The notes beneath the pieces were generated by a model. It saw only the letters and a program-made list of their open reading frames with translations, was not told where the DNA came from and searched no databases. A program made the position numbers and the translations under genes. Below, piece by piece: positions 3,167-33,600 of a stretch of 34,809 nucleotides of DNA (position 1 is its first letter; each line of letters starts with the position of its first letter). The stretch comes from Verrucomicrobiaceae bacterium. GTDB taxonomy: Bacteria > Verrucomicrobiota > Verrucomicrobiia > Chthoniobacterales > Chthoniobacteraceae. The stretch is from NCBI GenBank assembly GCA_005791535.1, contig SXWH01000159.1, positions 1 to 34,809 on the forward strand. The letters run 5' to 3'.

Positions 3167-3180
3167 CGGCTAAAGCCGGC
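3167..3180. repeat. Short perfect hairpin in intergenic region
   Basis: The 157-base gap between the convergent genes ending at 3102 and 3260 contains the perfect palindrome ccggct-aa-agccgg, a 6-base stem with a 2-base loop. It is followed by ccggcaaagcacgcg. There is no T-run on either side, so it does not look like a rho-independent terminator. It is more like a fragment of a dispersed palindromic repeat. The string ccggcaaagc also occurs on the minus strand beside the large inverted repeat at 12205-12273. Confidence 0.4.
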
Positions 3181-3259
3181 AAAGCACGCGTTCCCGAGAA
3201 TGACGACCACTCGCCGGGGTGGATTACTACAACGCGAAGGCCGTCTGCGCATCCCGGAA

Positions 3260-4954: not shown

Positions 4955-5051
4955 GAGTATCGTTCTAGAGGACACGGACGCCCGCGTCCAAGCTCGTAAT
5001 CAATTTACCACGCTCTCGGATGCCGAAAAAATCCACGGCACCCGCCGGGCC

Positions 5052-5612: not shown

Positions 5613-5622
5613 TTAGTTTGTC

Positions 5623-6183
5623 CTAGGAGGCCGCTTGTTTTGCCAAATAAATGATTTTCTCGTCCTTCTCGTCGCGCTCGATCTTCGTACGAAGATTGCG
5701 CATTGCCGCGTTGAGGATAAAGCCCACGTTACCCACGCTCAGCCCAGTAATCTGGCTAATCTCCTGATAGCTGTGATTTCCATGGAAGCGCAGACGGACG
5801 ACATCCTGCTGATTGCGGGGAAGTGATTTCACGTGCTCCATCAGTCGAGCGATTTGCTCACGGCGCGCCATGTCTTGAAGAGGAGTCACACTTTCAACCT
5901 TACGGTGCTCGAATTCCTCGTGCTCCACGTAGATATACCGATCCTCCTTTTTGATCGATTTGAGCGCACAATTGCGGCACACGGTGAAAAGCCACTGCGA
6001 AAGGTGCCCCTCAATGTTCGCCTGCTCCTGTGTGTGAAGCCGCATGAACGTCTCCTGCACGGTATCCTTGGCGCGATCCAAATCCTGAACGATGCTCAGC
6101 GCATATTGGAGGAGCGGGCGCTCGAAGCGCTCAAGGGCGCTCTGGACCCATGCTGATTTTTTCTTGGCCTTTGATTGGAACAT
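5623..6183 (-). CDS. RNA polymerase sigma factor, ECF (sigma-70) family
   Basis: A 186-residue sigma factor with the minimal ECF layout. Region 2 is at about 22-85, with DRAKDTVQETFMRLHTQ (region 2.1-2.2) and LSQWLFTVCRNCALKSIKKE (2.3-2.4). Region 4 is at about 112-165, with LPRNQQDVVRLRFHGNHSYQ leading into the ISQITGLSVGNVGFILNAAM helix-turn-helix. It would direct RNA polymerase to a small regulon. The partner anti-sigma-like gene follows directly. The 78-base upstream gap contains ttgaaa about 18 bases before taaaca on the minus strand, a weak promoter candidate, and a small gcgaacgc-centred hairpin. No GGAAC-type ECF autoregulatory site is obvious to me. Confidence 0.93.
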   Translation of the reverse strand: MFQSKAKKKSAWVQSALERFERPLLQYALSIVQDLDRAKDTVQETFMRLHTQEQANIEGHLSQWLFTVCRNCALKSIKKEDRYIYVEHEEFEHRKVESVTPLQDMARREQIARLMEHVKSLPRNQQDVVRLRFHGNHSYQEISQITGLSVGNVGFILNAAMRNLRTKIERDEKDEKIIYLAKQAAS

Positions 6184-6261
6184 AACGTGTTACTGATTTG
6201 GATTATCCGCGTTCGCGGGATTGTTTAGAAAAAAGTTGAAGGGTTTTTCAAATGCAGCGGC

Positions 6262-13999: not shown

Positions 14000-15205
14000 T
14001 CAAACTACGAAACGCTCCGGGGCCATCACATCTCGCTTCTTTGTCAAACGCCCGATCAGTCGATCCCAGCTTTCCTGTCCCCGGATGATTTCCACTTCGA
14101 TGCGAAGGTAATAGATGGGCACTTCCAGTTTCTCGATCCCCGCAATCTTCGCAGGGAAACGCACGGCGTCTTTCTCCGTGGTTACGATGCAATCCAAATC
14201 GCGGTTCACGGCGCGGGTCACAAAATCGCGCAACTCCTCATCATTGAAGCGGTGATGATCCGCAAACCGTGCTGTGATCACCGAATTCGCCCCGAGTTTG
14301 GTCAGAGATCCTTCGAAGCTCTCGGGGCGTGCGATTCCGCTAAGCACCCCGATATAGCGGCCTTTGAGGAAGTCGAGCGGACGCCGGTCGGCGGGATCGT
14401 AGAGGTTCTGCAAATACTGTGGCTTGTGCGCGCACTCGATGATTTCCGCCGTCGGGTTGTAGCTCTGGATGCGCTGGATCAATTCCTCGTTTTCCCCCGC
14501 GACTGATTTGGTGATGAGGACATACTGCGCACGCCGGATGTTTCCCGGCGGTTCACGCAGAGTTCCGCGCGGCAGCAGAAATTCGTTTCCGAACGGTGCA
14601 CCGCGGTCCACGAGGCATATATCAATCCGGTGCTCAATGTCCTGATACTGCATGCCGTCATCGAGCAGCAGAAGGTCCGCATTATATTCGCGGATCGCGT
14701 GTCTGCCGGTTCGCGCACGGTCACGGTCCACGAGCACGAGAACATCACCAAGTGAGCGCGCGAGCATGAATGGCTCGTCGCCCGCCCACGCCGAATCCAG
14801 CAGCAACCGTCGCCCGTCATGCACGACGCGTGGCTTAAACTTCCCGAAAAATCTCCGCCGGAAACGCCGGTGAAACGGCAGCTTCACACTCTTGTAGCCG
14901 CGCGACAAAATCGCCACCTTGCGACCGCCATCGGTAAGTTCCCGCGCGAGCTTTTCCACAACCGGCGTTTTGCCCGTTCCCCCGACCGTGAGATTTCCGA
15001 CGCTCAGGACCATGACGCCAAGCTGCCGTCCTTTCCGGATGCGCTTTCGGTAAAGCCACAACCGCGTCTGCACGCCGAAGCGAAAAATCCACGAGAGCCC
15101 GTAGAGGAACCACCGCAAGAAAAGCGCACGCTTCCCGAACCGGCGCTCCAAAATTACATCGGTCGCAAACTGCTCAAAGCGGTCCAGGCTGTCGCGGAGT
15201 GCCAT
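14000..15205 (-). CDS. lpxK: Tetraacyldisaccharide 4'-kinase LpxK (lipid A synthesis)
   Basis: A 401-residue inner-membrane kinase that phosphorylates the 4' position of the lipid A disaccharide precursor. A hydrophobic N-terminal anchor is at about 28-52 ([20 protein letters not shown]). The P-loop region reads [20 protein letters not shown], with GGTGKTP at 75-81, then SRGY at 101-104 and the family motif [13 protein letters not shown] at about 178-190. All match LpxK, and the length is slightly above the usual 330-370. The frame is open 101 codons further upstream, but those overlap thrB and look like shadow sequence. ATG 15205 lies 2 bases after the thrB stop, so thrB and lpxK are almost certainly co-transcribed. 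It implies a lipid A-bearing outer membrane. Confidence 0.95.
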
Positions 15206-15207
15206 GT

Positions 15208-16065
15208 TCAGATAAGGACAGTAGCGCCGCGATTGTCTGCGGATCGGATTAACGTGTAAGCACCCGCATTTCCGCTCGCAGTCTTCATCGCAGCGGCGAT
15301 CGCATCGGCATTTTCCAAAGCGACACAACAAATCGTGGAACCGCTTCCGCTCAGGAATCCGCCGATTGCCCCGGCATTCTCCGCTGCTGCGATAACCTTT
15401 CCGAGAAACGGAATCAGTCGCTCGCGATAGGGCTGATGCAGCCCGTCGGCAAAACTCCCGCGCAGGAGCTCGTAGCGCTGGGTAAGAAACGCCGCCGTAA
15501 TCCGGCAAGCGTTCGAGGAACTCATCACGGCGTCCCGTCTCGGAATCGAATCCGGCAGGATGCTCCGCGCCACCGGCGTGCTCACTTCGAAATCGGGAAT
15601 CAGCAACACAAACTTCAACTCCGGCGCGACCTCGCAGCGAATCGTCTCCGCGCCCGAACGCGAAACGGCAAAGCCACCGAACGCCGCCGGCGCCGCATTA
15701 TCAGGATGCCCTTCGAGTGCTGCGCACAACTCGAAAAGCGCATTGGGATTCAACGGCGAACCACTCAGCGCATTCAATCCGTGCATCACACCGAGTCGCA
15801 CTGTAACGCTGCTTCCCAGCCCGCGCGACTGCGGCACTTCGCCTTCGATTTTCCAATCGAATCCGAAAGGCGCGACGCCCGCTGCTTTGAAGAATGCATC
15901 CGCCGCACCGGAAAAAACCGCCGGATGCTCCGTGCGCGCGCTGCGTGAAATCGTGACTTCATTGGAAAGCCCGAGCGCGATGCCCAGGCTGTCGAAGCCG
16001 GGACCGAGATTCGCCGTCGTTCCGGGAACGCGTGTTGTGACCGTTTGCTGCATCGCCGCCAGCAT
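15208..16065 (-). CDS. thrB: Homoserine kinase (GHMP family)
   Basis: A 285-residue enzyme that phosphorylates homoserine with ATP in threonine synthesis. N-terminal GHMP motif TRVPGTTANLGPGFDSLGIA; ATP-loop motif 2 VPQSRGLGSSVTVRLG, where the usual GLGSSA is GLGSSV; EGHPDNAAPAAFGG; and the C-terminal motif GGFLSGSGSTICCV. Possible starts are ATG 16065 (ggaa about 5 bases upstream, MLAAMQQTV) and ATG 16053 (MQQTVTTRV); I chose 16065 for the better ribosome-binding site. The frame reaches 16161, but the extra residues precede the fold and overlap the divergent rph start. lpxK follows with a 2-base gap. Confidence 0.93.
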   Translation of the reverse strand: MLAAMQQTVTTRVPGTTANLGPGFDSLGIALGLSNEVTISRSARTEHPAVFSGAADAFFKAAGVAPFGFDWKIEGEVPQSRGLGSSVTVRLGVMHGLNALSGSPLNPNALFELCAALEGHPDNAAPAAFGGFAVSRSGAETIRCEVAPELKFVLLIPDFEVSTPVARSILPDSIPRRDAVMSSSNACRITAAFLTQRYELLRGSFADGLHQPYRERLIPFLGKVIAAAENAGAIGGFLSGSGSTICCVALENADAIAAAMKTASGNAGAYTLIRSADNRGATVLI

Positions 16066-16138
16066 TCGTTTCCGCGCGATTGCGTCAAATGCGAATTCAG
16101 CATTGCGCGAAGCATTCCAAACCGCCATTCGCTCCCGC

Positions 16139-16864
16139 ATGTCACGACACGATGGCCGCAATCCCGATCAACTCCGCCCGCTTTCCTTCACCCCGGACTT
16201 CGCTCCGAATTCGACCGGCTCGGTCCTGATCTCGACGGGCAACACCCGCGTGATCTGCTCCGCCATGGTCGAGGAATCCGTTCCGCGCTGGATGAAGGAG
16301 CAGAACGTCACCGGCGGGTGGGTCACCGCTGAATACTCGATGCTCCCCTACTCCACCGAGCAGCGCAAAGCGCGCGACATCAGCAAAGGAAAACTCGACG
16401 GCCGATCGTCGGAAATCCAGCGCCTCATCGGACGCTCGCTCCGCGCCGCCATCGACCTTGAGAAGCTCGGCTCGCGCACCATGTGGATCGATTGCGATGT
16501 CCTCGCCGCAGACGGCGGCACCCGCACCGCGAGCATCACCGGCGCAAGCGTCGCTGCCGCACTCGCGTGCAAAAAGCTCATGGCTGCCGGCCTCATCAAG
16601 GAATGGCCCATCAAACAGCTCGTCGCCGCAGTGAGCGTCGGCATGTTCAACGGTGAGGCCCTGCTTGACTTGAACTACATCGAGGACCGTGACGCTGCGG
16701 TGGACATGAACGTCGTGATGACCGAGAGCGGGCAATTCGTGGAACTTCAAGGCAGCGGCGAGGAGAGCACTTTTTCCGAAGCTGAGATGGCCGCGCTGCT
16801 CGCACTCGCGAAAAAGGGAATCGGCGAGCTGTTCGACGGCCAGCGCGCCATCATCGCCCGCTGA
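16139..16864 (+). CDS. rph: RNase PH (phosphate-dependent 3' exoribonuclease)
   Basis: A 241-residue enzyme that trims tRNA 3' ends using inorganic phosphate. It begins MSRHDGRNPDQLRPLSFTPD, a family-typical start, and contains STGNTRVICSAMVEESVPRW, QRLIGRSLRAAIDLE (about 94-108), CDVLAADGGTRTASITGASV (about 119-138) and YIEDRDAAVDMNVVMTESGQ (about 180-199, with the catalytic-region aspartates). The usual QGTAEGxPF segment near the C-terminus is QGSGEESTFS here, a moderate departure. The frame is open far upstream (to 15560), but that part is antisense to thrB. ATG 16139 gives the normal length. The gene diverges from thrB across about 73 bases and is followed 2 bases later by a methyltransferase start. 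Confidence 0.94.
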   Translation: MSRHDGRNPDQLRPLSFTPDFAPNSTGSVLISTGNTRVICSAMVEESVPRWMKEQNVTGGWVTAEYSMLPYSTEQRKARDISKGKLDGRSSEIQRLIGRSLRAAIDLEKLGSRTMWIDCDVLAADGGTRTASITGASVAAALACKKLMAAGLIKEWPIKQLVAAVSVGMFNGEALLDLNYIEDRDAAVDMNVVMTESGQFVELQGSGEESTFSEAEMAALLALAKKGIGELFDGQRAIIAR

Positions 16865-18884: not shown

Positions 18885-21800
18885 TCAGCGGTCAATTTTG
18901 CACTTTGGTAAAAGCCTTCGGAGTTCGGCGACTGCTGCGGGCGGAATCTCAGTATCACGAATATCAAGCTCGTGTAGCGTGCGCAGGCTTTTTAGCGGCT
19001 CAATTGCGTCAGCGGTCAGCTTGGTCCCGTTCAAGACGAGCGTTCCCAGGGATTTGAATTTGCCGAGAATCGCGAGTTGGGAGTTGGAGATACCGCTGCC
19101 CGGCATTTTGAGCGTATCGAGGGCAGGCAATGCTGCGATTGCGGCGAGTTGTTCATCGGAAATGTTCTGAGCGCTGAAACCGACGCTGGTGAGCTTTGGG
19201 AGTTTGGCGAGTGCCCGGATTCCGGCCGGCGTGAATGAATCGGATGAGCGCCCCATCATGATCGATTCGAGCCGCGGGAAGGAATTGGCGATGACCATGA
19301 GGGCTGAATCTGTTCCGGGACGCGATGGCGAGAGCGTGATCGCACGTGTCGCATTTGTTCCGGTGATCTTCGCCAGAAGCGGCACATCAGTCGCATCAAT
19401 TTCGAGAGACTCGAGTTTGCGCATCGCACCGATGAAGCCCAGGTCCAGGCCAACGAGCGGGCTGTTCTGAAAGCTGAGATGTTCGAGCTTCGATTGCTCC
19501 ATGGATTTCCAGCCGGATGCAGGGAGATTCTGGCAGTTATTGAATGTCAGTTTGGTCAAAGCCGGCAATGATGCGATTGCCGTGAGTTGCTCGGCAGTGA
19601 TTGCCGGACGTTCAATGATGATTTGCTGCAACTCCCGCGCCTTTGCGAGCGTGCCCGCGGGCAGGAATGAGCCGGCAGTTCTGACTTCAATTTGGTGCAG
19701 ACTCGAAATGCACGGCAGTTCGGAGAACCGCGCGAGGGTGAAGTCCTTTCCGCCACGCAGAACGAGTCGTCGTAGTTTTTTGGAACGCGAGAGCGCCGAA
19801 TAGACGGCGTCTGTGAGGACTTGCGAATCAATCACAAACTCATTGAGCTCTTCAGCCTGAGAAAGGAATCCGAGACCCGCTCCGGTGATTGGCGCGCCGC
19901 GCAATTCAAACCGCCTTAATCCAAGCATCGGCGCGAGTTGCGCGAGATCCTCATCGGTGGGGATTTTGACATCCTTCACGAGTTTGTCCGGTGTCGCCAG
20001 TTCCAGAATCTCAAATTGAGAGTGCGGTATTTCGTCGGGCCCGGTGATCGGAACGCGTTTCCCGCCCTCCTCGAGAACCACACGCCAGCGGGCCGCGAGC
20101 AGAAACTCCAGCGCCTCGCGGCCCTTGAGTTTGCCCGCGGGAATCGCGACTGGAGCAAGCGCTTGCGTCGCATCGAGCGCGGGCTTCAGCCAGTCGCGCG
20201 CAATTTCCTCGCGTCGCGTCTTCACCAGTTGAGCATCGTCGAGACGCTGGCGTAGTGTGAGCGCCTTCTGGTTTTGGTCGAGGAGCGCATCATACCGCGC
20301 GTGCAAAATCTTCGCCTGGGTGAATCTCGCATGATCCAATTTTATGAAGTTCTTACGCCAGTTATCCCGGAGCTGAATGAGCGCAGGGTGCGTAGGCGGA
20401 GGATTCACATCTTCATGCGGTGCCTGAGCTCCAACGCGGATCCGCTCGTTCCGCCAGATCAGAGCTTCGTCAAGGTTGTTGGCCTGACTCGCAGCAGCAA
20501 TGTTCCTGTCGAGCGTGGCGATATATTGCTGGCGCAGTTCCGCGACTGCTTTTTCGAACGGAGCCGTGACATCGCGTTGGAAAATCGGATTCCACTGAGC
20601 TTCAGCCGCCGCAAGCCATTTTGCTGTTTCGGATTCGACAACAGGAACCGGCGGCGTGACCGGTGCAGGAGCGACCGGCACCGGAGTCGCGGGCATGGGA
20701 GCATCGGACGGTGCCTTCATCGGTCCCTGCTCAGGAACGGCAGGAACAGCCGCCGGTGGCTTCGTGTTTGCAGCAAAGGTGGCGGGAGATGGCTCGAGAC
20801 TCAGCAACTCAAACTTTGAGACCGACTGCGCGCTTTCTTTCCTGATCCACAAGTACGGCTGACCCTCCTTCGGCTGAGGGTCGCGTGCGGCCAGTATACG
20901 ATCATTTGCCCTAACGATGATCAGATCCCCGACAGCCTGAATCTCTACGCTCATCTGCGACTTCGGCGCAGGTTGTGGAGCGACCTTTAGTTCGGGACTC
21001 AGCAACACCGACGACCGATCGCCGATCAGAAATTTCTCCAGCTTCACACCAATATTACCCGCACCATTTGCCCCGGTGAATGCGAGGCGAATCATCGACT
21101 CCCCATCGTTGCGTACGCCGATTTGCACGCTACTCGCCGTCGTCCAATCAAACGCTACGCGAATCACTCCATCGCGCATTTTTACGTCCGACTGCCAGGT
21201 CGATATCGCGCCTGCCGGGTGAGTCAGCACCCCGTCGGCAAACATCCAACCCTCCGGCGGGATCACTCCGGCAAACGCATCCTTCCATCGGTCCTTTTCC
21301 GCAGCATCACGAGCAGCAAGCGTATCGGTTCGCGACTCGAGGATGAATCCACGACACCTCGTCGGAAAATCGGTGCGGGCCGATTCAGCCTGCGTCTTGT
21401 CGCTCCATGCGAGCCCTCCGCCTTTTGCCGGCGAGAGGCGCGAGAGAACCAAATACAACGGGAATTCCGTGGCTTTCGCCGAATTGTGGCTCGGCTCTCC
21501 TTGCGCCCATCCTTGATAGTTCCACTCCTCGTCACCAAGCCATTGCCACGCTGATCCGGCTTTCAACCGATATCCTCCGAGCATCGCGAAGCTCCCCTGC
21601 GTACCCAGCGCCGGAGAGTATGCCTGGCGGAGAAAATCATCCTTTTCCTTGCTTGTGACCGTCGCGAGACGTCCGGCCAGCGATTCCGCGACCAACCTCG
21701 CTTCGTCCCACGTCAGCGAACCGTGGACGAGTTGGAATCGGGAACCGTCGAATGATGCAATGTCACTCGCATCCTGAATCGGGATTGCCGGTGACTTTGG

Positions 21801-23636
21801 AGTGGGCTTCGGGGTGGGTTCGGGTTTCGCTTCAACCTTCGAATTGCCCCCTCTGGCTGCGAGCGCCCTCTCAGCCTCGCTCAGCCCTTCGTTTCGGCCT
21901 TTCGGCCACAGAATGATCGCAAACGCAATCGCCGCAACCGCGCCACCGCCGATATACATTCCTTTCCGCGAGCGCGGTTGCGCAGCAGTCGCAGGTCTCG
22001 GTAATTGGGGGACGACCTTTCCAACAGCCTGAGGTCCTTTGACTGCAACGGGCACCGGATGTTGCGTTCGGATTGCACGGATCGCAGCCTTCATTTCGCC
22101 GCATGTCTGGTAACGCCGATCTCGTGCCTGCTGCATGGCTCTGAACACAACCGCATCAAGCCGCGCATCCACAGCAACGCGCTTCGAAGGCGGGTCAAAG
22201 ACGCCGCACGGGACCTCTCTCACCAACATTTCGTAGAGCATCACTCCCAGCGAAAAAATATCAGCTCGATGGTCCACCGGTGTGTTATGCAACCGTTCCG
22301 GCGCCATGTAATCCGGCGTCCCAATCACCACTCCCGTCGCCATTCCTGTGGATTGAGCTCCCGGCTGGCTCAAACGTGCGAGGCCAAAGTCTGCAACTTT
22401 TGCACGACCTTCCGCGTTCACGATCACATTCCCCGGTTTTACATCGCGATGCACAACGCCCTTGCCATGCGCATAATCGAGAGCATCAAGAACATCCTCA
22501 AAGATTGTTAAAGCCCGCTCGGGCTCGAGCCCATCGACGTGGATAATCTGATGCAGATTGTCGCCTTCGACAAACTCCATCACGAAAAACAGATGCCCTT
22601 CCGACGTCTTTCCGAACTCGTACACCGCCACGATGTGCGGGTGATTCAGGTAGGCCATCGTCTTTGCCTCCTGCCCGAATCGCTCCGCAAATTCCGCATT
22701 CGCGCTCACCTCGAGAGGCATCAGTTTAATCGCCACCGTCCGCTCCAGTGTCGCCTGCCGCGCTTTGTACACCGCCCCCATCCCCCCATGCGCGATCAGT
22801 GAAAGAATCTGATATTTCGGAAAAAGTCGTATCACTTCATCGAGACCCGGAGGCGTCCAGGTCATGTGGTCCGACACCGGTTCATCCACACGCATCGCAC
22901 ACTCAAACCACTGCTCCGGTTCCAATCCCGCGAGCCTCGACGGAGCTGGTGCAGAAGCGGTCGGTCGATGCACGCCCGATACGGCTGCACGAAGCACTTT
23001 CACTTCCACATCGATCTCGGCCGGATTGGCGACCGTGTCTCCGACGACCGAGCGCAGAATTTCACAGAAGCGCCGACGAACCGCGGAGATCCCCACTCCA
23101 ACTCCCTCAGGCGCGCCATTGTCCGAGCCACTCAGATGGGGCAATACCTTCGACAGAGCTTCCTGTTTTTCCGGCGATGAATGCTCTGAGCGCAACAAAT
23201 CAACCGCTATCTCCAATACCGTGAGCGCCCAACGCCTATGGAAAATTGCATCCGGATCACCCTCAGGTTCGCGTGCGTAACGATCTTCCGCCCACTCCGC
23301 GTCCAGACCAATCGGCGGAACTCCGAGCAACTTTACACCCCGCTCCGCGAGATTCCCGACCCGCGCAATCGCCCATTCCCTCATTGAAAGTGAACCCGCA
23401 TCGTCCAAACGCGGCGGCTCGGGACCAACCCACCGCTCAAATGCCCCTTCAGTTGCAAAGACTGCCTTCTTCGCAGGAAGTCCGGCCCTCCGCCACCAGG
23501 CATAAATCGGATACCAATATGGTGAACCGAGCTTCCGAATGTCATTGTCCGCAATCGTTCGAACTCCAGCGAGCACGTTACACCACAGACCATTGAACGA
23601 GTAATGGTTCGCACCATTCTGCGGATTGGTATTCAT
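18885..23636 (-). CDS. Giant serine/threonine protein kinase with decayed ECF-sigma N-terminus, C-type lectin-like and leucine-rich-repeat regions
   Basis: A 1583-residue protein. Residues 1-225 follow the planctomycete/verrucomicrobial ECF sigma template: YWYPIYAWWRRAGLP (40-54), LDAEWAEDRYAREPEG (111-126), FHRRWALTVLEIAVDLL (132-148), AVRRRFCEILRSVVGDTVAN (185-204). The DAQDLTQ region-2 motif and most of the region-4 helix-turn-helix are lost. The kinase domain is about 275-520: GGMGAVYKA (284-292), Lys304, HRDVKPGN (396-403, catalytic Asp398), DFGLA (416-420), APE (445-447), so it should be active. A membrane helix is at about 560-577 and a Pro/Lys linker at 602-618. Then come a C-type lectin-like domain (about 630-767), a LamG-like beta domain (about 785-948), a Pro-rich linker, a coiled-coil region (about 1003-1160) and leucine-rich repeats (about 1210-1583). 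Kinase inside, sensor outside is the likely topology. Confidence 0.92.
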   Translation of the reverse strand: MNTNPQNGANHYSFNGLWCNVLAGVRTIADNDIRKLGSPYWYPIYAWWRRAGLPAKKAVFATEGAFERWVGPEPPRLDDAGSLSMREWAIARVGNLAERGVKLLGVPPIGLDAEWAEDRYAREPEGDPDAIFHRRWALTVLEIAVDLLRSEHSSPEKQEALSKVLPHLSGSDNGAPEGVGVGISAVRRRFCEILRSVVGDTVANPAEIDVEVKVLRAAVSGVHRPTASAPAPSRLAGLEPEQWFECAMRVDEPVSDHMTWTPPGLDEVIRLFPKYQILSLIAHGGMGAVYKARQATLERTVAIKLMPLEVSANAEFAERFGQEAKTMAYLNHPHIVAVYEFGKTSEGHLFFVMEFVEGDNLHQIIHVDGLEPERALTIFEDVLDALDYAHGKGVVHRDVKPGNVIVNAEGRAKVADFGLARLSQPGAQSTGMATGVVIGTPDYMAPERLHNTPVDHRADIFSLGVMLYEMLVREVPCGVFDPPSKRVAVDARLDAVVFRAMQQARDRRYQTCGEMKAAIRAIRTQHPVPVAVKGPQAVGKVVPQLPRPATAAQPRSRKGMYIGGGAVAAIAFAIILWPKGRNEGLSEAERALAARGGNSKVEAKPEPTPKPTPKSPAIPIQDASDIASFDGSRFQLVHGSLTWDEARLVAESLAGRLATVTSKEKDDFLRQAYSPALGTQGSFAMLGGYRLKAGSAWQWLGDEEWNYQGWAQGEPSHNSAKATEFPLYLVLSRLSPAKGGGLAWSDKTQAESARTDFPTRCRGFILESRTDTLAARDAAEKDRWKDAFAGVIPPEGWMFADGVLTHPAGAISTWQSDVKMRDGVIRVAFDWTTASSVQIGVRNDGESMIRLAFTGANGAGNIGVKLEKFLIGDRSSVLLSPELKVAPQPAPKSQMSVEIQAVGDLIIVRANDRILAARDPQPKEGQPYLWIRKESAQSVSKFELLSLEPSPATFAANTKPPAAVPAVPEQGPMKAPSDAPMPATPVPVAPAPVTPPVPVVESETAKWLAAAEAQWNPIFQRDVTAPFEKAVAELRQQYIATLDRNIAAASQANNLDEALIWRNERIRVGAQAPHEDVNPPPTHPALIQLRDNWRKNFIKLDHARFTQAKILHARYDALLDQNQKALTLRQRLDDAQLVKTRREEIARDWLKPALDATQALAPVAIPAGKLKGREALEFLLAARWRVVLEEGGKRVPITGPDEIPHSQFEILELATPDKLVKDVKIPTDEDLAQLAPMLGLRRFELRGAPITGAGLGFLSQAEELNEFVIDSQVLTDAVYSALSRSKKLRRLVLRGGKDFTLARFSELPCISSLHQIEVRTAGSFLPAGTLAKARELQQIIIERPAITAEQLTAIASLPALTKLTFNNCQNLPASGWKSMEQSKLEHLSFQNSPLVGLDLGFIGAMRKLESLEIDATDVPLLAKITGTNATRAITLSPSRPGTDSALMVIANSFPRLESIMMGRSSDSFTPAGIRALAKLPKLTSVGFSAQNISDEQLAAIAALPALDTLKMPGSGISNSQLAILGKFKSLGTLVLNGTKLTADAIEPLKSLRTLHELDIRDTEIPPAAVAELRRLLPKCKIDR

Positions 23637-23916: not shown

Positions 23917-26019
23917 CTACTTTGAAAGCAAATCAATCACTCCGTCGACGCACGGTTTGTTACTGGCGAGGTGGGCGAGGTAGTATGCAGCGACAGGGTC
24001 CCCTTTGCGGCCGCGGCGGGTGTTGGCTTCTTCAAAGAGCTTTTGCGCGGACGGGCGATCGTTTTTTTCAAGGAAGGAGAGGGCTTCGTGGTGAGCGGTG
24101 ATCCAGTCGGGCTCGGCCTCCCGCCGGGCAGGACCGATGAGTTCGTGTACAATCGCGATTTCGATTCGGCCCTTCATTCGGAACTTGCCAACGCGGCGAG
24201 TACGGTAGTCGGTGCCGATATGCTGCTTTACCTCCTCGGTGATGAGGATGCTGGTGCCGAACACCTTGTTGAGTCCTTCAAGTCGCGCGGCGCTGTTCAC
24301 TGCGTCTCCGATGACGGTGTAATCGCTGTGTTGCTCCGTACCGATGTAACCCGCGACGACATCGCCAAAGTGGATGCCGACCCGCGTGCGCAACTCCTGG
24401 CCATCCACGACGAGTTTGTCAGACTCGTGGAGCTTCCATGCGGCATTCACCGCGTTTTTTGCGGCATCGGGGTCCGGAACCGGAGCGCCCCACACGGCGA
24501 CAATGGCATCGCCGATGAACTTGGTTATAGTGCCATTATGATCGAAAATATGACCGGTCGTGCGCCGGAAATAATCGTTGAGCGTGGCGACAATTTGCTC
24601 GGGGTTCTTCACGTTTTCGCTCATTTCGGTGAAGCCTTCGATGTCAGTAAATAGGATCGCCGCCATGATGCGCTCGCCGCCCGGCTTCACGTCGTAGCCG
24701 CGCGCCTCCAATTGTGTGAGCACTTTGGGAGAGACGAGTTTGGCAAAGGCCTGCTTCAGACGACGCTGCTCTTCGGACAGGCGGAGTTTGAGAAAGCGCT
24801 CGATGTAAGCGCGACTTCCGATCGCCCAAACCAGTGCAACGGGAATCTGCACAAACGCCGGAACGCTCCACGGAAACCACACGCCCACGTAATGCACCTT
24901 CCAAACGCCATAGGCGATCAGGAGAATCGTGACTGCAACCGCCGCGCCCACCGCCTTGAAAGGACGGAAGAGCGACAGCAAAACGCCTGCAGCGATGCCA
25001 GCGCCAACGATGAATGCGTAATCAAGCGCGAGTGGTGTGCGCGTGAGCCAGTTGCCCTTCAAAAGATTTGCGAGCGCATTGGCCTGGAGTTCGACGCCAC
25101 TCATGAGCGGGAGATTACTCCGGTGATGAAGTCGATGAAACGGCGTAGAGAATAAATCCTCGCCAGCAGCCGCTCCCACGATACCGGGAGCCCCGCCGAC
25201 AATGACAATCTTGTTCCGGAATAGACCCGGCGCGGCACCTTCCTTCAGGTCCTTCCAAAAATACGAAGCGATGGCCGGTGTGGCATTCGGATCCTCCGGG
25301 TTCGGAGTCGGGCCTGCATAGTTCAGCCAGCGCGGTTTCAGGCGGGTTGTTTCATCAAGCTTTGCTCCCAGAGCGAGCGCGGCTTTCCAGGTCATGGAGG
25401 GTTCATCGGGCGTGCCCGTCATCAGCTCACGAACGGTGAATCGTTCATCGTGGACGAATGCGACAATTCCTTTGTCTTCGCCGGACGGATCACCAGCGTC
25501 GGAGATCACGTCGGTGGGCGGGATGAGCCGCTCGCCCTGAACGCCCGTTTTTCGGATGGATTCGCGAATAAACGCGAAAAACACCGGACGTTGTTTCTGG
25601 CCGGCAATTGCCTTGTTGTCGGCGTCCACTCCACGAAACTTGCGAATGGAAGCCGCGAAAGCCTCGTCCACTTTCGGGTCCTTCCACGGGGCTTGGAAAT
25701 CGAGATCATACAGCACTGCGGCTGCGCCGTTCTCACCGAGTATGTCGAGCAGCTTCGGCTGCGCTTTGCGGTCCACGGCGTCACCGTCGGTTTCGTCCAT
25801 ATAAACAATGGCGATGTTCTCAGGCGTGCCGCTGCGGTGGAAGATGAACGGAAGGTCGTAGCTGAGCGTAACGACGCTACCGCCGAGTCGCGTCAGAGCC
25901 AGCACACCGGAAGCGACCGCGAGCAATAGTCCGACGATCGCCGCAATGAGACGGGTGCGCCCTTCCGTAATTTGCACAATGCCGGGGAATCGACTGCGTG
26001 ACTGGTTGGACGCGGGCAT
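23917..26019 (-). CDS. CHASE2-domain class III adenylate cyclase
   Basis: A 700-residue inner-membrane enzyme making cAMP from ATP. One N-terminal membrane helix is at about 24-42, an extracytoplasmic CHASE2 sensor domain at about 45-320 (DLPFIFHRSGTPENIAIVYM, then LYDLDFQAP and KIVIVGGAPG), and three membrane helices at about 330-402. The catalytic domain is about 450-630: metal Asp459 (LFTDIEGFTEMSE), adenine-specifying Lys500 and metal Asp504 (TITKFIGDAIVAVWG), and DYTVIGDAVNSAARLEG, where the transition-state Asn575 and Arg579 are present and the second specificity residue is Thr568, as in class IIIb cyclases. All catalytic residues are intact. The C-terminal 70 residues look TPR-like. 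ATG 26019 follows the stop of the FecR/TPR/barrel gene by 4 bases, indicating translational coupling. Confidence 0.94.
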   Translation of the reverse strand: MPASNQSRSRFPGIVQITEGRTRLIAAIVGLLLAVASGVLALTRLGGSVVTLSYDLPFIFHRSGTPENIAIVYMDETDGDAVDRKAQPKLLDILGENGAAAVLYDLDFQAPWKDPKVDEAFAASIRKFRGVDADNKAIAGQKQRPVFFAFIRESIRKTGVQGERLIPPTDVISDAGDPSGEDKGIVAFVHDERFTVRELMTGTPDEPSMTWKAALALGAKLDETTRLKPRWLNYAGPTPNPEDPNATPAIASYFWKDLKEGAAPGLFRNKIVIVGGAPGIVGAAAGEDLFSTPFHRLHHRSNLPLMSGVELQANALANLLKGNWLTRTPLALDYAFIVGAGIAAGVLLSLFRPFKAVGAAVAVTILLIAYGVWKVHYVGVWFPWSVPAFVQIPVALVWAIGSRAYIERFLKLRLSEEQRRLKQAFAKLVSPKVLTQLEARGYDVKPGGERIMAAILFTDIEGFTEMSENVKNPEQIVATLNDYFRRTTGHIFDHNGTITKFIGDAIVAVWGAPVPDPDAAKNAVNAAWKLHESDKLVVDGQELRTRVGIHFGDVVAGYIGTEQHSDYTVIGDAVNSAARLEGLNKVFGTSILITEEVKQHIGTDYRTRRVGKFRMKGRIEIAIVHELIGPARREAEPDWITAHHEALSFLEKNDRPSAQKLFEEANTRRGRKGDPVAAYYLAHLASNKPCVDGVIDLLSK

Positions 26020-26023
26020 TGCG

Positions 26024-29000
26024 TTAGAAGCTAAAGCGGCAACGCACGAAGAAAGTGCGCTCGTGCGGCAGTTCCCGCAGATAGGTGAGCGGGCTCAGTT
26101 GGTAGTCGGTGTCGTTCAAATTCAGCACACCTGCGCTGACCTCGCACAAATTGTTGCGAAACCGGTAACCGAGCTGCGCATTCACCTGCCAGAAGTCATC
26201 GCCCGGCTGGCCGTTTGTGCGCGCTCCCGCCACCGCGCCATCAAGCTCCTGCGAATACCAGTTGAGTTCGGCCCGCGCAAATAAGCCGGAGGGCGAGTTC
26301 CAATTTGCGTACACCGTGCCCTCGTGCAGCACGGCCTGATCGAATTGATCCGCTCCTCTTTCGATGCTGACCGGCACTTCCTGGAAAATTGTGCGTAGTT
26401 CTGCATAGGTGTGCCGGTAGCCAAGGCCAACCGCCCATTCACTGCCAATCAGCTGATTGAGCCCCGCGCTGAGAACTTCCTCACGGTATGCGAGTGTCTG
26501 CGTCGTGCCACCGGGTAAAGATGCTGCCCCGGCTGGAAAAATCGGATGATTGATCAAATCGAACGCGCCCAAAGTTCGCTCCACGTCCTGCTCCAAGATG
26601 TTGAACGAAGCGCCCCACCAACTTCTGGTCGGCAGTGCGCCCTCAATGCTGAGGCCCCAGTTTTTATAAAGCGGCGTTTCCACCGAACCCGCAATGTCCT
26701 CGGAAATGAGCGTGCGGAAAGCCTGATTGAACCCTGCAAGTTGACTGGGCTCCAGACGTACACTTTCGTCAAACGTCACGCCGCCCAGCCCTTCCGTATA
26801 AACGCCGCGAACCGTGAACCAGCGCGAAGGCGAGAGCGTGAATCCAAACTTCCCGTTCAGCCGCTCGACTTCTGTCTGCCGTTCGCTCACTGGCGGATTG
26901 CGGAAGTTTTCCGGGCGTTCGATATGATCCCACGAGGCTCCCGCGATGAGCGTAATCCACGGAGCAGGCTTCATGAAATCGTAGGCATAGAGGCTGTGCC
27001 GCTCGAAATCCAAGCTCACATGCTGGCTGACGGCTGGCAGTGGATACAGCCCTTGGTTAACCGGATTGAGCAGCCCGAGCCGGGTATCCGTCTCAAACTC
27101 GCCACCCTGCCAGCGCCCACCGAGGATCAGCGTGTTGTGCTTCGTATCCCAGATATGCTGAACCTCGCCGGTATAAATCTCGAACTGCCGCAATGTCGCG
27201 AAACTGAATTGTTCGCTATTGGCGGATGCCACCGCTCCGCGCCCCAGAAATGGTGCGAGACCACGGAGAAATTCACGAGAGTAAGTCAGCGACTGGTCGG
27301 GATTCTGAACCACCGCTGGTATTTGACCAGAAACGGCGGACTGATTCAAAAATGCGCCGAGCTTTGGATTCGGCACGCGAGTGAGCAGCAACTGCCTCGT
27401 GGCTGGATCTGTGAGCACCTGCTCCGCCGCCAGCCGCCCGCCAAGGAAAAGCGTATGCACACCGGGAGCCCAGCGATGGTTCCACCCGCCCAGAAGCAGT
27501 CCCGGCTCCTGTTTTTCCTCGAAGTCCAGACCGAGGCTTCCCGGCAAATTGCCATAGTTCTGAAAAAGGTCGCCGCTCTCTTGATCCTGCCATTTTCCAA
27601 GCGTGTAGAAGACATCGTCCGGCGACGCCTGATACTTCGCCTGCCAATACACCTCCTCGCGCGAAGTCTCGCTGTTCGGGCGGTCGCCGTTGTCGTAAAG
27701 GTAGGAGAAATCGAAACCGAGGCTCAGTCGCCCGTAGGTGGCGAACACCGACGCCCGCTGGTCGAGTCGCCCATTATCTCGCCACTCGCCGGAGTAGCTC
27801 CCGCCCACGCCCTCGGCCTCCAGCAGCTTTGAATATTCCTGCTGCGAAACAAACTGCGACAGCGGCCCGCCGCCGACCGGTGCGAGCAGATACGCCAGCA
27901 GCAGTTCGTTGAACCACACCGTCTCATAGCGAAGCGAAATGCGGTTCGGGTCGCGCAGTGCGTCGAAGCTGTTCGACAGGAAAAGATGCGCCGAAGCGTT
28001 CGTGTAGTCGCTCTCCACAGCTCGAGTCGCCTCGCGCACGGCAAGATCCGTCATCCCCGCATTTTGGTAAACCTTCGCGAGATTCGAGCTTCGTATGGCT
28101 CGATCCTGATCCAGTAAGAACTGGGAGCGATAAATGCGGCGGTTGTCATTCAGTCGGAGCGATTCCTCGATGTCGCCAATCGCTGCGTTGTAGCGGTTCT
28201 CCTGCTGGTGTTGCACCGCCGAGTAGAGCCACGGCGTCGGGTCGTTCGGGTCAATCTGCTTTGCCAGATCGAGGTCCTTGCGCGCATCGCTCTTGCGTCC
28301 CTCCGCGCTGAATGCCTTGCCGAGATAGCTGTGGAAAATCGCCGACGCTGGCTCCACCGTTGCCGCCGTCTGCAAGTCGGCGCGACCTTCCTCCTGCCGA
28401 CCGCTTTTGATTCGCACCAGCCCGCGTCCAAGCCACGCATTTCCGAGTGCGCCGTCGAGCCTGATGGCTTGTTCAAACGCATCTTGCGCGGCACGAATGC
28501 GGTTTTCCGCGCTCAGGATGAACCCGTGCAGCGCGTGGGCCTGCGCATTCTTTGGCGTAAGGGATAGGCCCTTTTCCAGCGCCCGGCGAGCAGCGGCAGT
28601 CCGCCCGAACGAAAACTCCAACTCCGCCACGCGCGTCCACGCATAGCCATTCTGCGGCGCACCGGCGGCGGCTCTGCGTGCGGCAGCCAGTGCTCCCTCA
28701 AGATTACCGCGCGATTGCAGGAAATAGCTCTCCGCCATTTCTTCCGACACGCTTACGCCAGAAGGGTCTGGATTCGGCTCATTGGCATTACGATCCATGG
28801 AAGGGCTGTAATTCACCGCCGCGATCATCCGCTCCAGTGCACGGCGTCCCGGATTACTCACATCAACGGAACGTAACGCCACACGCGCTTCATCCACGCG
28901 ACCGACGGCGACCAGGACGCCCGCTTTGTACAGCCTGCCACCCGTGTTGCCCGGCGCGCGATTGGGATACTTTTCCAACGCACCGAGTAGATCGCCTTCC

Positions 29001-29716
29001 CGATAGGCAGCAAGCGATGCTGCAACTGCTCGCTGCTCGGCAGCGCTCATGCCGAGTTCCGACGGGTCGAGCACCCCGGGATAATAGAGCGCCCATTGCA
29101 GAATGTTCTTCGCGGAGATGGACGCGGTCTTTCTCGGAGCGCTGCCCGGCGCGGCTTCGCCTGCCTCGCCGGCATTCAGCAAGACGCGTCCGTGCGAGTT
29201 TCCCATCTCCACACTACCCTCGATCACATGGAAGAAAGAGCGCCCGCCCGACACTTGCACGAAAAGCTGTGTTCCTTTGAGAGCTCCGTTCGCGGCGGGT
29301 GTCTTGATTCCGATCTCCCCGCCTTCCTCGCGGCTAAAGATGAACGCCGCACCTCCCGAAAGATTGAGCTCCGGCTTCCCTCCACTGACGAGCTTCGGCG
29401 AAATCTCGATGGTGGTGAATTGCTCCATCCGCATCGTGTAGAGATCCGTGAGCTTGACCGTCGCGCGGCTCTTCTGACGGGTGCGGATGCGGTCGCTGAC
29501 GGCGAGAGATTGCGCATCAGTCGCCGCCGCCCACGCCGCCATACCGCTCTTTGCGACCTGAACGATGTTCTCGATTTCCAGAATCTGCGCGTCTTGTCCG
29601 AATGCGAAGGATGCAAACGCCACGAGGGGCAAAAGCAGACTGGGAGCCCCCAACAAATTTGGAGTTTTCACGTTTCCGTTGATCCCCGGTTGTTCGATTG
29701 AGCAGCGTCGTTTCAT
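26024..29716 (-). CDS. FecR-domain, TPR-repeat, outer-membrane beta-barrel fusion protein
   Basis: A 1230-residue exported protein. From ATG 29716 it has a signal peptide (basic MKRR, hydrophobic LLLPLVAFASFAFGQ ending near 40). The FecR domain is about 45-200, with the classic AVSDRIRTRQKSRATVKLTD near 72-91 and IGIKTPAANGALKGTQLFVQ near 135-154, then EGSVEM. TPR-like repeats run about 205-560 (AEAR/ALEKGLSLTPKNAQAH-type units, DAFEQAIRLDGALGNAWLGR, LDLAKQIDPNDPTPW). From about 630 to the end is an outer-membrane-type barrel of alternating strands, rich in Tyr, Trp and Gly, ending in RCRFSF with a terminal Phe, the usual assembly signal. No TonB plug domain is visible. The frame extends to GTG 29803, but this would bury the signal peptide. 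The CHASE2 cyclase follows 4 bases downstream. Confidence 0.87.
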   Translation of the reverse strand: MKRRCSIEQPGINGNVKTPNLLGAPSLLLPLVAFASFAFGQDAQILEIENIVQVAKSGMAAWAAATDAQSLAVSDRIRTRQKSRATVKLTDLYTMRMEQFTTIEISPKLVSGGKPELNLSGGAAFIFSREEGGEIGIKTPAANGALKGTQLFVQVSGGRSFFHVIEGSVEMGNSHGRVLLNAGEAGEAAPGSAPRKTASISAKNILQWALYYPGVLDPSELGMSAAEQRAVAASLAAYREGDLLGALEKYPNRAPGNTGGRLYKAGVLVAVGRVDEARVALRSVDVSNPGRRALERMIAAVNYSPSMDRNANEPNPDPSGVSVSEEMAESYFLQSRGNLEGALAAARRAAAGAPQNGYAWTRVAELEFSFGRTAAARRALEKGLSLTPKNAQAHALHGFILSAENRIRAAQDAFEQAIRLDGALGNAWLGRGLVRIKSGRQEEGRADLQTAATVEPASAIFHSYLGKAFSAEGRKSDARKDLDLAKQIDPNDPTPWLYSAVQHQQENRYNAAIGDIEESLRLNDNRRIYRSQFLLDQDRAIRSSNLAKVYQNAGMTDLAVREATRAVESDYTNASAHLFLSNSFDALRDPNRISLRYETVWFNELLLAYLLAPVGGGPLSQFVSQQEYSKLLEAEGVGGSYSGEWRDNGRLDQRASVFATYGRLSLGFDFSYLYDNGDRPNSETSREEVYWQAKYQASPDDVFYTLGKWQDQESGDLFQNYGNLPGSLGLDFEEKQEPGLLLGGWNHRWAPGVHTLFLGGRLAAEQVLTDPATRQLLLTRVPNPKLGAFLNQSAVSGQIPAVVQNPDQSLTYSREFLRGLAPFLGRGAVASANSEQFSFATLRQFEIYTGEVQHIWDTKHNTLILGGRWQGGEFETDTRLGLLNPVNQGLYPLPAVSQHVSLDFERHSLYAYDFMKPAPWITLIAGASWDHIERPENFRNPPVSERQTEVERLNGKFGFTLSPSRWFTVRGVYTEGLGGVTFDESVRLEPSQLAGFNQAFRTLISEDIAGSVETPLYKNWGLSIEGALPTRSWWGASFNILEQDVERTLGAFDLINHPIFPAGAASLPGGTTQTLAYREEVLSAGLNQLIGSEWAVGLGYRHTYAELRTIFQEVPVSIERGADQFDQAVLHEGTVYANWNSPSGLFARAELNWYSQELDGAVAGARTNGQPGDDFWQVNAQLGYRFRNNLCEVSAGVLNLNDTDYQLSPLTYLRELPHERTFFVRCRFSF

Positions 29717-30150
29717 TTGCTGTGCGGCGGTTATGGGATGGAGCGGCGTGTGTTGGCGACTCCGAGGTGATCGTAGAGGTTGGATGCGACGTATGTAATG
29801 CACCTTCCTTTCGATTCGCAGGTACCGGTGAACACATTAAAGTTCGCAAAAATTCGTGCTAACGTCTTCGCGAATACCGCACCAACACCATTCAGGCCTA
29901 ATGGTCGCATAGTTCCGCAAATATTGCCGTCGCAGACCCGCTCCACCTCGGCACAAGGACTGACAACCACATGCGCCGTATGCACCTCGCGGCCATCAGT
30001 AGTTCGGGGCGCCTTTCTATACATTCGCGCGCAAGCTGAGCATGGAACTGCGGCAAGAACTCCGATTACACCCACCGCGAAGCGATGCGGGCAGTTCTTG
30101 AAAGATTCGAACGATAGGGATGTCGGCATGGATCAAATGATGGAAGCGCA

Positions 30151-30600: not shown

Positions 30601-30634
30601 GTAAGTGACCGAGCTGGTGCTTACTTTAGCGCAC

Positions 30635-33600
30635 ATGAAAACAGCGTTTCGCTCCCAAGGTTTGGTTCTCCTCGTTTTCACCATGCTTTCGTTAACCCTG
30701 CGGATCCCAGGGTTCGGCGCGACGGAAATTGTCAGTGTTAGTACGGGAGGTGAGCCGAGTAGCTTTTCTCCAAGTCGAAACCCGGCGGTTTGCGCGACTG
30801 GGCGCTGGGTTGCCTTTGATTCCGCGTCAGGCGAGCTGGTCAGCAACGACCAGCTCGACAAGCGGGATGTGTTTGTCCGCGACCGACTCACGCGTGAAAC
30901 GATGCGCGCGAGCGTGGGCATCGGAGGAGAGGCTAACGACGACAGCACTGACCCTGCGATCAGCGCGGATGGTCGCTTTGTTGTTTTCACGTCATCAGCT
31001 ACGAACCTGGCCTCGTCCGACACGAATGGAGTGAGCGATATTTTTGTTTTTGACCGTCAGACGGGGAAGATATTGCGTGCAAGCGTGGCCACCGGCGGGA
31101 CGGAGGCCAACGGCTCGTCGTTCTTCCCTGCCATCAGCGGAAACGGGCGGTTCGTTGCGTTCATTTCGAGCGCGAGCAATCTCGTGTCAGGGGACACAAA
31201 CGGTCAGGACGACGCATTTGTGCATGATTTGGTGACAAGGACGACTACGCGGGTGAGTGTCCGCTCGGATGGGGTACAGACGCTTACCGTGCATAATTTC
31301 ACTGGTCCGCCAGACCTCAACCATGACGGGCAGCGGATCGTTTTCACCTCGTCTGCCAGCGACCTCGTGAGTGGCGACACCAATGGTGTCGCCTCTGATA
31401 TTTTCCTTCATGATCGCGTGGCGAAAACAACCGTCCTCGCAAGCGTTACCGCTGGCGGCGCGCAGGCGAATGCCTTCGCAGCAGACGGCAACATCAGCGA
31501 CGATGGCCACGTGATTGCATTCGTTTCGACTGCGACCAACCTCCCGGGCGGCAACGGCCAGCTGCACGTTTTCGTGCGCGACCTTCGAACAGGAGTGGTG
31601 TCGCGACCCCGACCTTCGGCGACCTACTCGTATGGTCCGCGACTTTCCGCCGACGGTAGCCGCATTGCGATGGTTTCAAAAGTTGCGGGCACAAGCGAAC
31701 AAGTGGAGATCGTGGACAGAACCAGTGCCAAGGTCTTCATGCCCGCACGCTTTCCGGACGGCACAGACGCCGGTAATTCGTCCGGCGCTGGCGTAAGCGC
31801 CGATGGGCGCGTAGCGGTATTTGTCGCAAGTGCGAATGGCATCGTTGCCGCGGACACCAACAACGCCGGCGATGTATTCGCGCGTCAGCTTTTCGATACG
31901 ATCAGTTTCTCTAAGACCGCTTATTATGCGCCGGAGAGCGACGCGAACGCTCAGGTCGTTGTGAAGCGCGACGGTGTTCTCAATGGCGCAGTCACCGTGC
32001 AGTATGCGGTTTCCGCTGCTGGCGACACTGCGATTGCCACCAAGGATTATAATGCGGCGGCCAAGGCTGGTACACTCACATGGCCCGCTGGCGATTCGAC
32101 CGATCGCATTCTCACGTTTCCGCTCATCAATACATCCGAAGGCGACGGCTATCGCTTTTTCACCGTTGCACTGACATCGCCGACTGGCGGCGCGGCAACA
32201 GGTAATGCTGAGACCAAGGTAGTGATCCGCGACACGGAGAGTGATCCGGTGGAGAACCGAGTCGGGCACGGACTGAAAATCACGCGAATCGAGTCACGCG
32301 GCACGAATTGGGACAGCGGACTTTTTCGGGCATTGTTTACGATCAAAAATCCCGCACCCCTGCCTTCGTTCCCAGGTTTCATTGAGTTTCGCTTCGACGG
32401 AAACGTCATCGCAAATGCGAACTTTGACTCCGTCCCTGCGAACGGCGAACTGGTCGTGGATGCGGTTGCAAGTCTCGGAAACGGTCCGGACGGAGATGTT
32501 TTCGCGTTATTGTTTGAGACGACCGACAACGGGGCTGTGCTCCAGGACAGCGGGTTCGCAGCCGGCTTTTTTGGCATCCTTGGATCCGCGCCACCAGAAG
32601 GTGGCGTGACTCAGCCGAATGTCGGTCTCAAGGCACCTGATATTACCGTTCCCACGATCAAGAGCATCGTTATCGAAGGTCCGGCAAACGTGAACGAAGG
32701 CGCTTTTGCAGACTACACCGCAAAGGTGACGCTGTCCGACAACACGATTCTCGCCAACGTCACACCCGGCTGGCGAACCTCGTTCTTCAATATCAGCGGA
32801 GCCGGGCGCTTCACCGCGAGCGATGTCGCTGCGGACAAGCCCGTGCAACTCACAGCGACTGTTACTCGCAACGGTGTTGCGAAAACTGCCACGCGTCAGA
32901 TTACTGTCAAAAATGTCCCGACCACACCCATAATAACGAGCAGCGCGACCGCCTCAGCCACACGAGGCAAACCCTTCACCTACCGCATCACCGCACGGCA
33001 TGAGGCAACCAGCTTCGATGCAATCGGGCTTCCCGCCGGTCTCAGCGTGAACACGAGCACAGGTACTATTTCCGGCGCTGCCGATACAGCCGGCCCTTTT
33101 GCTGTCCAAATCAAGGCCACCAATACGATCGGCACCGACACAAATCCTCTCACCCTCACCGTGTTTGAACCCAGCCCGCTCACGATCCAGATCGCCGGCA
33201 ATGGCACGGTTTCGCCAGACCCGAATGGCCAGCTCCTCGACGTTGGCAAAACTTACAAACTGATCGCTAAACCCGGAACCGGCCAGATTTTCGCCGGTTG
33301 GAGTCATGGCATCACGAGCCTGTTTCCCACGCTCCAATTCGTTATGGTTGCGAATCTCGTCCTCGACGCCACCTTCGTCGCAAACCCGTTTCCCACGCGC
33401 TCGGGCAGCTATACCGGCATCATCACTTCCGTTCCAGCGTCCCATGCCGCGGGCGGCCTGTTTCAGGCGAAGATCACCTCCTCCGGGCTCGCCACCGGCA
33501 AAATCGTGATCGGGGGTAAACCAGTCCCGTTCAAAACAAGCCTGCGAGCTGACGGGCAAGCGCCGCTCCTCACATTAAAACGCCCCGGTGTGCCATCCGT

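Follow-up and report, generated by a model that had tools for sequence, protein, structure and literature searches.

A degenerate ECF sigma factor domain fused to a putative receptor serine/threonine kinase in a verrucomicrobial bacterium

Introduction

What becomes of a transcription-initiation factor once it shares a reading frame with a protein kinase? The question is raised by contig SXWH01000159.1 of a Verrucomicrobiaceae bacterium – a stretch of 34,809 nucleotides that we call, as a whole, the window – in which one uninterrupted frame on the minus strand (18885–23636) encodes a giant serine/threonine (Ser/Thr) kinase. An earlier reading of the letters alone, here the sequence-only reading, had seen in its first 225 residues (23636 down to 22962) a decayed extracytoplasmic function (ECF) sigma factor of the kind known from Planctomycetes, Verrucomicrobia and their relatives (the PVC group).

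As far as sequence can decide it, that origin is settled: the N-terminal domain of the kinase derives from a kinase-linked ECF sigma factor of the PVC group and has degenerated. What it does now is a matter of probabilities, and ours concern the window copy. We find it somewhat more probable than its opposite that the former sigma factor now serves a membrane receptor kinase as an associated domain, regulatory or docking, on the cytoplasmic side; the broader proposition – that a transcription-initiation factor has become a kinase subunit, a sigma-derived and RNA-polymerase-independent regulatory domain of receptor kinases – is in our view evenly balanced. Throughout, L-numbers denote loci or alignment rows, and G-numbers genomes in the comparison.

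An ECF sigma factor at the N-terminus of a kinase

The gene and the sigma-derived part of its product are laid out as follows.

18885..23636, (-) strand: whole fused gene (1583 residues), with sigma-like domain, Hanks-type Ser/Thr kinase, one membrane helix and a lectin-like and leucine-rich-repeat (LRR)-like C-terminal part
22980..23594, (-) strand: degenerate ECF sigma domain, residues 15–219 (alignment, hhalign, AlphaFold2 model)
23427..23480, (-) strand: former region 2.2, residues 53–70, with KAVF-ATE instead of DAED-LTQ and Thr62 retained (column counts)
23316..23342, (-) strand: site without the region 2.4 KRGGG element, residues 99–107 (column counts)
23211..23315, (-) strand: retained group-specific segment IGLDAEWAEDRYAREPEG...FHRRWALTVLE, residues 108–142 (alignment; W136 conserved)
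23082..23132, (-) strand: region 4 helix-turn-helix (HTH) lacking its first helix, at about residues 169–185 (alignment; AlphaFold2 helix lists of the window against a canonical control)
22983..23048, (-) strand: retained C-terminal tail VVGDTVANPAEIDVEVKVLRAA with T201 and E211, residues 197–218 (column counts)

In the window's own genome, 11 further places match the first 235 residues (E 1.1e-14 to 0.0185). Most are stand-alone ECF sigma genes, with a kinase frame close behind three of them (L004, L006 and L007); the weakest match (L012, E 0.0185) appears unrelated and does not resemble a sigma gene. When 12 degenerate rows were compared by hhalign with 20 canonical sigma factors, the two profiles aligned over 217 columns with Prob 100 and E 1.9e-55 (an E value for that one comparison), and it is through this canonical profile that homology to sigma regions 2 and 4 is found. 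The profile–profile check proposed with the sequence-only reading thus returns a significant sigma relation, and both the ECF origin and the PVC-group identity are borne out. All the peptides quoted earlier occur in frame, and the window's HDAQDLTQEFFARL stands opposite the KKAVFATEGAFERW of its canonical relatives in a gap-free alignment.

A library scan of ten proteins places the two kinds of relative side by side. All four canonical proteins match Sigma70_r2 (PF04542; E 1.6e-07 to 4.1e-05, with L003, L025 and L027 over the cut-off) and TIGR02937 (E 2.6e-12 to 2.0e-05, with only L025 over the cut-off); none of the six degenerate proteins matches either model, and a single stray sigma-70 model match of 15.7 bits was seen among them. 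Searched against PDB sequences, the 20 canonical rows gave five matches, the best to SigE at E 1.2e-05.

The predicted structure agrees with this picture in part. AlphaFold2, given 42 sequences, folds window residues 1–241 into nine helices (mean predicted local distance difference test, pLDDT, 87.8; predicted template modelling score, pTM, 0.84), and the canonical control L025, from the same 42 loci, into eleven (pLDDT 88.6, pTM 0.83). The kept helices that had been foreseen are therefore in the model. On our reading of the helix lists, two early helices of the control appear as one in the window, the region 2.3/2.4 helix is shorter (85–99 against 94–113), and the short helix preceding the long region 4 helix is missing.

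Three null results have to be set against a sigma origin. In direct scans, residues 1–235 matched neither Pfam nor NCBIfam at E<=1, which is why a profile of the domain's own clade was needed; the degenerate-clade profile found no PDB sequence at E<=10; and a Foldseek search of the PDB with the window model returned nothing at E<=0.001, its best match being SigE (E 1.6, probability 0.21). The L025 control likewise has no Foldseek match at E<=0.001, with ECF sigma factors as its best (E 0.01, probability 0.99–1.00). Foldseek alone is thus insufficient to prove a sigma origin, and the modelled window fold is sigma-like but changed: of the proposed structural check, the helical scaffold stands and the significant match to an ECF sigma factor does not.

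The merger itself, also claimed earlier, is seen in the uninterrupted frame and again in two other genomes, which carry the same fused protein at 59–60% identity over 1601 alignment columns; the fusion is therefore no assembly slip.

What the sigma domain has lost and kept

Residue counts were taken from 65 aligned sigma domains, of which 51 are canonical and 14 degenerate (8 stand-alone, 6 fused); two-fragment L031, together with L100 and L006, was left out of these counts and of the sigma tree. According to the available parts of PMC8103513, PMC8999054 and PMC13147305, region 2.2 binds the β′ clamp of RNA polymerase. There, D60 and Q63 are each present in 48/51 canonical rows and in 0/14 degenerate ones, so the altered region 2 core noticed earlier in the window extends to its whole clade. 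An acid (D or E) at position 57, the first of the DAED motif, is found in 47/51 canonical rows, 6/8 stand-alone degenerate rows and 0/6 fused rows: loss of the region 2.2 motif is graded across stand-alone and fused members. The window itself, with K57, V59, F60 and E63, has no acidic β′-clamp motif.

The −10 element is read by region 2.4, whose KRGGG motif has its Lys and Arg in every canonical row (51/51) and in no degenerate one (0/14), so that the window also lacks a basic region 2.4 – a loss beyond those of the sequence-only reading. The shortened region 4 described there is confirmed as a gap of 12–13 residues, with NGAPEGVGV in place of YxxxAxxxGMxxxA; the first helix is gone, and with it a complete HTH. 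Elsewhere in the clade region 4 is mostly kept (12/14 rows: 8/8 stand-alone and 4/6 fused), the exceptions being the window and G004, where most of it is gone. Arg185, in what we take to be the recognition helix, survives in 4 of the 13 degenerate rows with a letter there, against 50/51 canonical rows.

Other positions have held. G52 is conserved in 49/51 canonical and 14/14 degenerate rows, W136 in 51/51 and 14/14, and T201 and E211 in 51/51 and 13/14, the remaining row (G004) having a gap there. Two residues are newly fixed in the degenerate clade, W47 (14/14, against 2/51 canonical) and G24 (14/14, against 0/51). With rows thinned at 80% identity to 44 canonical and 11 degenerate, and with a position at least 85% conserved in the former counted as lost if kept in less than 25% of the latter, losses amount to 3/7 positions in region 2.2, 4/7 in regions 2.3/2.4 (7/14 across 2.2–2.4) and 1/23 elsewhere. 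A Fisher test of this uneven distribution, with the HTH grouped with the functional regions and the region borders drawn by ourselves, reaches only p=0.019.

Could the domain still dock on RNA polymerase or DNA and so bring the kinase to transcription complexes, as the sequence-only reading first suggested? AlphaFold2 is confident of the scaffold helices, and the widespread retention of region 4 would suit such a role. Some acid also persists: Glu occupies position 63 in 7/14 degenerate rows, including the window, and this, together with the acid at 57 in most stand-alone rows, means that stand-alone members may still bind polymerase. Against docking stand the clade-wide loss of D60, Q63 and KRGGG, the missing acid at 57 in every fused row, the scarcity of Arg185, and the HTH deletions in the window and G004. 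The idea is disfavoured, and for the window copy we regard it as highly improbable.

A second alternative would make the fused kinase an activator, phosphorylating the domain – at Thr62, for example – and restoring the charge needed for β′ clamp binding, as in EcfP/PknT. The ECF43 mechanism, in the available text of PMC8103513, PMC8999054 and PMC13147305, offers a parallel in its changed DAED and its Hanks kinase partner. Thr62 lies in the same helix in 13/14 degenerate rows, and other sites are conceivable, EcfK being also phosphorylated in the σ2–σ4 linker (PMC13147305, available text). However, the ECF43 phospho-Thr is the third residue of DAED (PMC13147305, PMC8999054, as far as their available text goes), where the window has Val59 and only one row of the 14, a fused one (1/6), has Thr. 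Thr62 lies three residues past that site and is the ancestral Thr of DLTQ (45/51 canonical rows), so an ECF43-like switch fits poorly; one stand-alone member has Cys at 62, and the window protein has a predicted membrane helix. Since every degenerate row has lost the −10 element and the window its HTH as well, charge alone would hardly restore a working sigma factor. We judge this activation quite unlikely. Indeed, with most of the polymerase motif, the −10 element and a full −35 reader all missing, a protein tied to the membrane can hardly be expected to serve as a sigma factor at all.

A clade that degenerated before it was fused

To see how far the degenerate domain extends, a 12-row profile was run through genomes of the order (213), the class (384) and the phylum (387), the last two sets being samples whose draws overlap, and the best 13 or best 7 candidates per genome were scored. 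At least 13 places reached at least 250 bits, all in the window's own family; the next full-length score was 182 bits. With G030, G018:C139 and G004, which are broken, partial or very divergent, the degenerate loci number 16. In the sigma tree, midpoint-rooted and with bootstrap values not fully settled, the 8 stand-alone and 6 fused rows are set apart, on a long stem, by a branch with 100/100 support: the degenerate domain is a monophyletic clade, found, among the candidates scored, in no family but the window's own. Such a phylogeny of stand-alone and kinase-linked sigma factors had been proposed as a check, and it supplies what the sequence-only reading lacked, namely motif loss already in stand-alone members. 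Since all eight of these also lack D60, Q63 and KRGGG, degeneration began before fusion.

Within the clade, a group of seven stand-alone rows separates from a second group made up of stand-alone L018 and the six fused rows, and members of both groups co-occur in G017, G018 and G019. A concatenated tree again puts L018 next to the fused rows and holds these together at only 62–67% bootstrap; judging from the sequences, we favour a single origin of the fusion over several. HTH deletions are confined to fused rows (2/6, the window and G004; 0/8 stand-alone), so fusion may have made the HTH dispensable. Each stage has living representatives: intact sigma factor with kinase, degenerate sigma factor with kinase, fusion, and fusion without HTH.

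Two copies call for separate comment. At L099 (G030), a frame change interrupts a stand-alone degenerate sigma factor; the assembly is fragmented, and the change may be an error of it. This copy was kept out of the trees and its kinase was counted from the true frame. The most divergent fused copy, L101 (G004:C60, locus 2925–6434), has lost nearly all of region 4 and carries a TPR array in place of the lectin/LRR-like part. Other candidate fusions were rejected: G263:C1 and G667:C26 have sigma factor and kinase in separate frames, and G004:C60 at 26581 and G039:C40 appear to be ordinary sigma factors behind spurious open frames.

The kinase is a constant companion. It adjoins the sigma gene at 9/16 degenerate loci, is in frame with it at 7/16 and starts with a zinc (Zn) ribbon at 0/16. 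Among canonical rows, a kinase lies within −60 to +400 bases in 30/52, 26 of them with a Zn ribbon and 4 without; the other 22/52 have no kinase in view, some because the available sequence ends. The kinase tree repeats the sigma subclades, with L018 once more beside the fused rows and the long row L033 placed differently, and since the two trees largely agree, the sigma–kinase pair has been inherited as a unit.

Three of the four canonical loci with a kinase but no Zn ribbon – L042, L078 and L085 – come closest to the degenerate pairs. In each, DAED is intact in the sigma factor, and the neighbouring PADLL-type kinase has a PADLL-like motif similar to SPDELF in the kinases of the degenerate clade. 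In the midpoint-drawn sigma tree they are the canonical rows nearest the degenerate clade (by a weak branch, 94/37), and their kinases fall beside the clade's kinases in the kinase tree; possibly, they are living relatives of the degenerate pair's ancestor.

Their distribution bears on a third alternative, in which the domain would be a sigma mimic that soaks up an anti-sigma-like regulator, or the kinase of a canonical sigma factor, and so frees real sigma factors. PhyR, a sigma-like domain fused to a signalling module, acts by such mimicry (PMC8103513, available text), and in G018 a canonical PADLL pair occurs alongside both a degenerate pair and a fused copy. Yet a close canonical PADLL sigma factor (>=382 bits) occurs in only 2/40 family genomes (G017 and G018), the window's genome not being among them, and the partner that can be seen for this sigma group is the kinase, with no search having been aimed at anti-sigma genes. 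Mimicry is, to our mind, an unlikely account of the window copy.

Finally, the sigma part might be non-functional baggage left over from fusion. The domain has evolved faster than the kinase in the window's lineage, and the HTH deletions in two fused rows would also fit. Non-synonymous to synonymous rate ratios (dN/dS, by Nei–Gojobori) speak otherwise. Comparison of the fused copies of G031 and G032 gives 0.094 in the sigma domain and 0.105 in the kinase, with 0.218 in the linker and 0.145 over the remaining sequence; where the degenerate sigma factor is separate, three pairs come to 0.104, 0.138 and 0.231, and two canonical pairs stand at 0.129 and 0.180. The sigma domain is under purifying selection in four close pairs, and with ratios of 0.094–0.231 it is not in free decay. 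Between the window and G031, the sigma domain has a ratio of 0.274 with dS >1. The clade-specific fixation of W47 and G24, and a separate degenerate gene kept in three genera, tell further against baggage, which we consider very unlikely. The earlier word 'decayed' thus holds for the sigma motifs and fails for the domain, which is shared by a whole clade and selectively maintained in close pairs.

From sigma factor to kinase domain

The remainder of the fused protein gives the domain its setting.

22824..22979, (-) strand: linker, residues 220–271, in which LEPEQWFECAMR is the counterpart of the SPDELFARGM motif
22053..22814, (-) strand: Ser/Thr kinase domain, residues 275–528 (PF00069, residues 275–478, E 6.6e-49; NF033483 to residue 528)
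21906..21962, (-) strand: single predicted membrane helix, residues 559–577 (hydropathy maximum 1.89 over 19 residues)
21480..21719, (-) strand: weak C-type-lectin-like match, residues 640–719 (PF00059, 18.2 bits, under the cut-off of 22.6)
18888..19826, (-) strand: LRR-like C-terminus, residues 1271–1583 (PF23598, E 8.9e-09, 35 bits, under the cut-off of 40)

The kinase has the Hanks-type catalytic motifs VAIK, HRDVKPGN and DFGL, and lies on the opposite side of the predicted membrane helix from the lectin-like part. In stand-alone partner kinases, the SPDELFARGM motif is found near the N-terminus.

In the explanation that we prefer, the ancestor would have been a PVC-group ECF sigma factor, of a kind often encoded beside a Hanks-type kinase. 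While still a separate gene before its kinase, it would have lost much of the polymerase-holding motif of region 2.2 and, at the same stage, the −10-reading element of region 2.4. In-frame joining to the kinase would have followed and, afterwards, in the window copy, trimming of the −35-reading HTH. The helical scaffold remains, as do the RRWALT segment and, at the C-terminus, the DTVxxPxEIDxE tail – presumably an old sigma–kinase recognition surface, through which the domain would act in cis where fused and as a partner protein where separate. It might gate the kinase or present substrates to it, as directed by the lectin/LRR-like part beyond the membrane. The third suggestion of the sequence-only reading, a kinase-regulating domain, coincides with this explanation, the regulatory role being one that we infer.

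The kinase is the probable partner because the group's own elements have been kept, the two genes adjoin or are joined across the 16 loci, they are co-inherited, and they have become fused. Apart from the acids that persist at positions 57 and 63 and the Fisher value given above, four considerations pull the other way. Contact between domain and kinase, and likewise the direction of any regulation, is deduced from indirect evidence. Adjacency and fusion would be equally expected if the domain were simply a substrate of the kinase. The conserved tail does not prove a kinase-facing surface, since it is also found in the canonical sigma factors with no kinase in view. Lastly, dN between the window and G031 is 0.36 for the sigma domain against 0.17 for the kinase.

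Neighbouring genes in the window

Upstream of the fused kinase lie a CHASE2 and adenylate/guanylate cyclase gene (23917–26019, (-) strand) and, with the cyclase gene four bases behind it, a gene for a FecR–TPR protein with a weak TonB-receptor-barrel match (26024–29803, (-) strand), apparently a two-gene operon. An operon shared by the fused kinase and the CHASE2 cyclase was ruled out, as none of the other window genes recurs beside the relatives at 13 loci, within the limited flank available.

Farther off, 30605–34417 on the (+) strand encodes a probable surface protein of 1270 residues, whose repeats are of WD40-like PD40, Calx-beta, He_PIG and InlB-like type. LpxK is encoded at 14000–15508, (-) strand (PF02606, E 3.8e-79). 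At 15560–16864, (+) strand, the RNase PH match (PF01138) begins only at residue 204, which suggests that the true start is internal.

Comparison with known systems

Kinase-linked ECF sigma factors are themselves known; what appears to be new is that one has turned into part of a kinase. Among the matches listed, the literature contained no degenerate ECF sigma factor fused to a Ser/Thr kinase, the ECF re-classification and planctomycete surveys being outside this coverage, so that a prior mention there is possible. We know of no worked-out mechanism for sigma–kinase pairs of the PVC group, and here the degenerate clade may help: it separates the two halves of the system, having dropped the polymerase and −10 contacts and kept the kinase. 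Its still-conserved parts are for that reason candidates for the kinase-facing part, and the RRWALT segment, T201 and E211 form a shortlist of residues through which canonical pairs might communicate. The clade also illustrates clearly, step by step, a transcription factor on its way to becoming a signalling domain.

The closest system is that of the kinase-linked PVC sigma factors, including relatives in the window's own genome, which belong to the same sequence family from end to end and show the same order of sigma factor, then kinase. They differ in keeping DAED-LTQ and KRGGG, in being separate proteins and in the Zn ribbon with which 26/30 neighbouring kinases start.

The remaining comparisons rest on the available parts of the papers cited. 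ECF43 sigma factors – EcfP with PknT and EcfK with PknS (PMC8999054, PMC13147305) – share a changed DAED and a Hanks kinase as functional partner; unlike the window domain, they are working sigma factors and separate proteins, with the phospho-Thr inside DAED, whereas the window domain also lacks the −10 element and has its common Thr elsewhere. IutY and groups ECF48, ECF52 and ECF53 (PMC8999054) likewise combine a sigma factor and a membrane part in one chain, but the sigma factor there is functional and, in IutY, freed by proteolysis; the window domain is without the functional residues and has a kinase as its partner. PhyR (PMC8103513), finally, is a signalling protein that contains a sigma-derived domain with a role other than transcription. 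It belongs to the alphaproteobacterial EcfG–NepR system and carries a receiver domain, of which a Pfam scan of the window protein found none; in the window, the sigma-derived domain is joined to a kinase domain instead.

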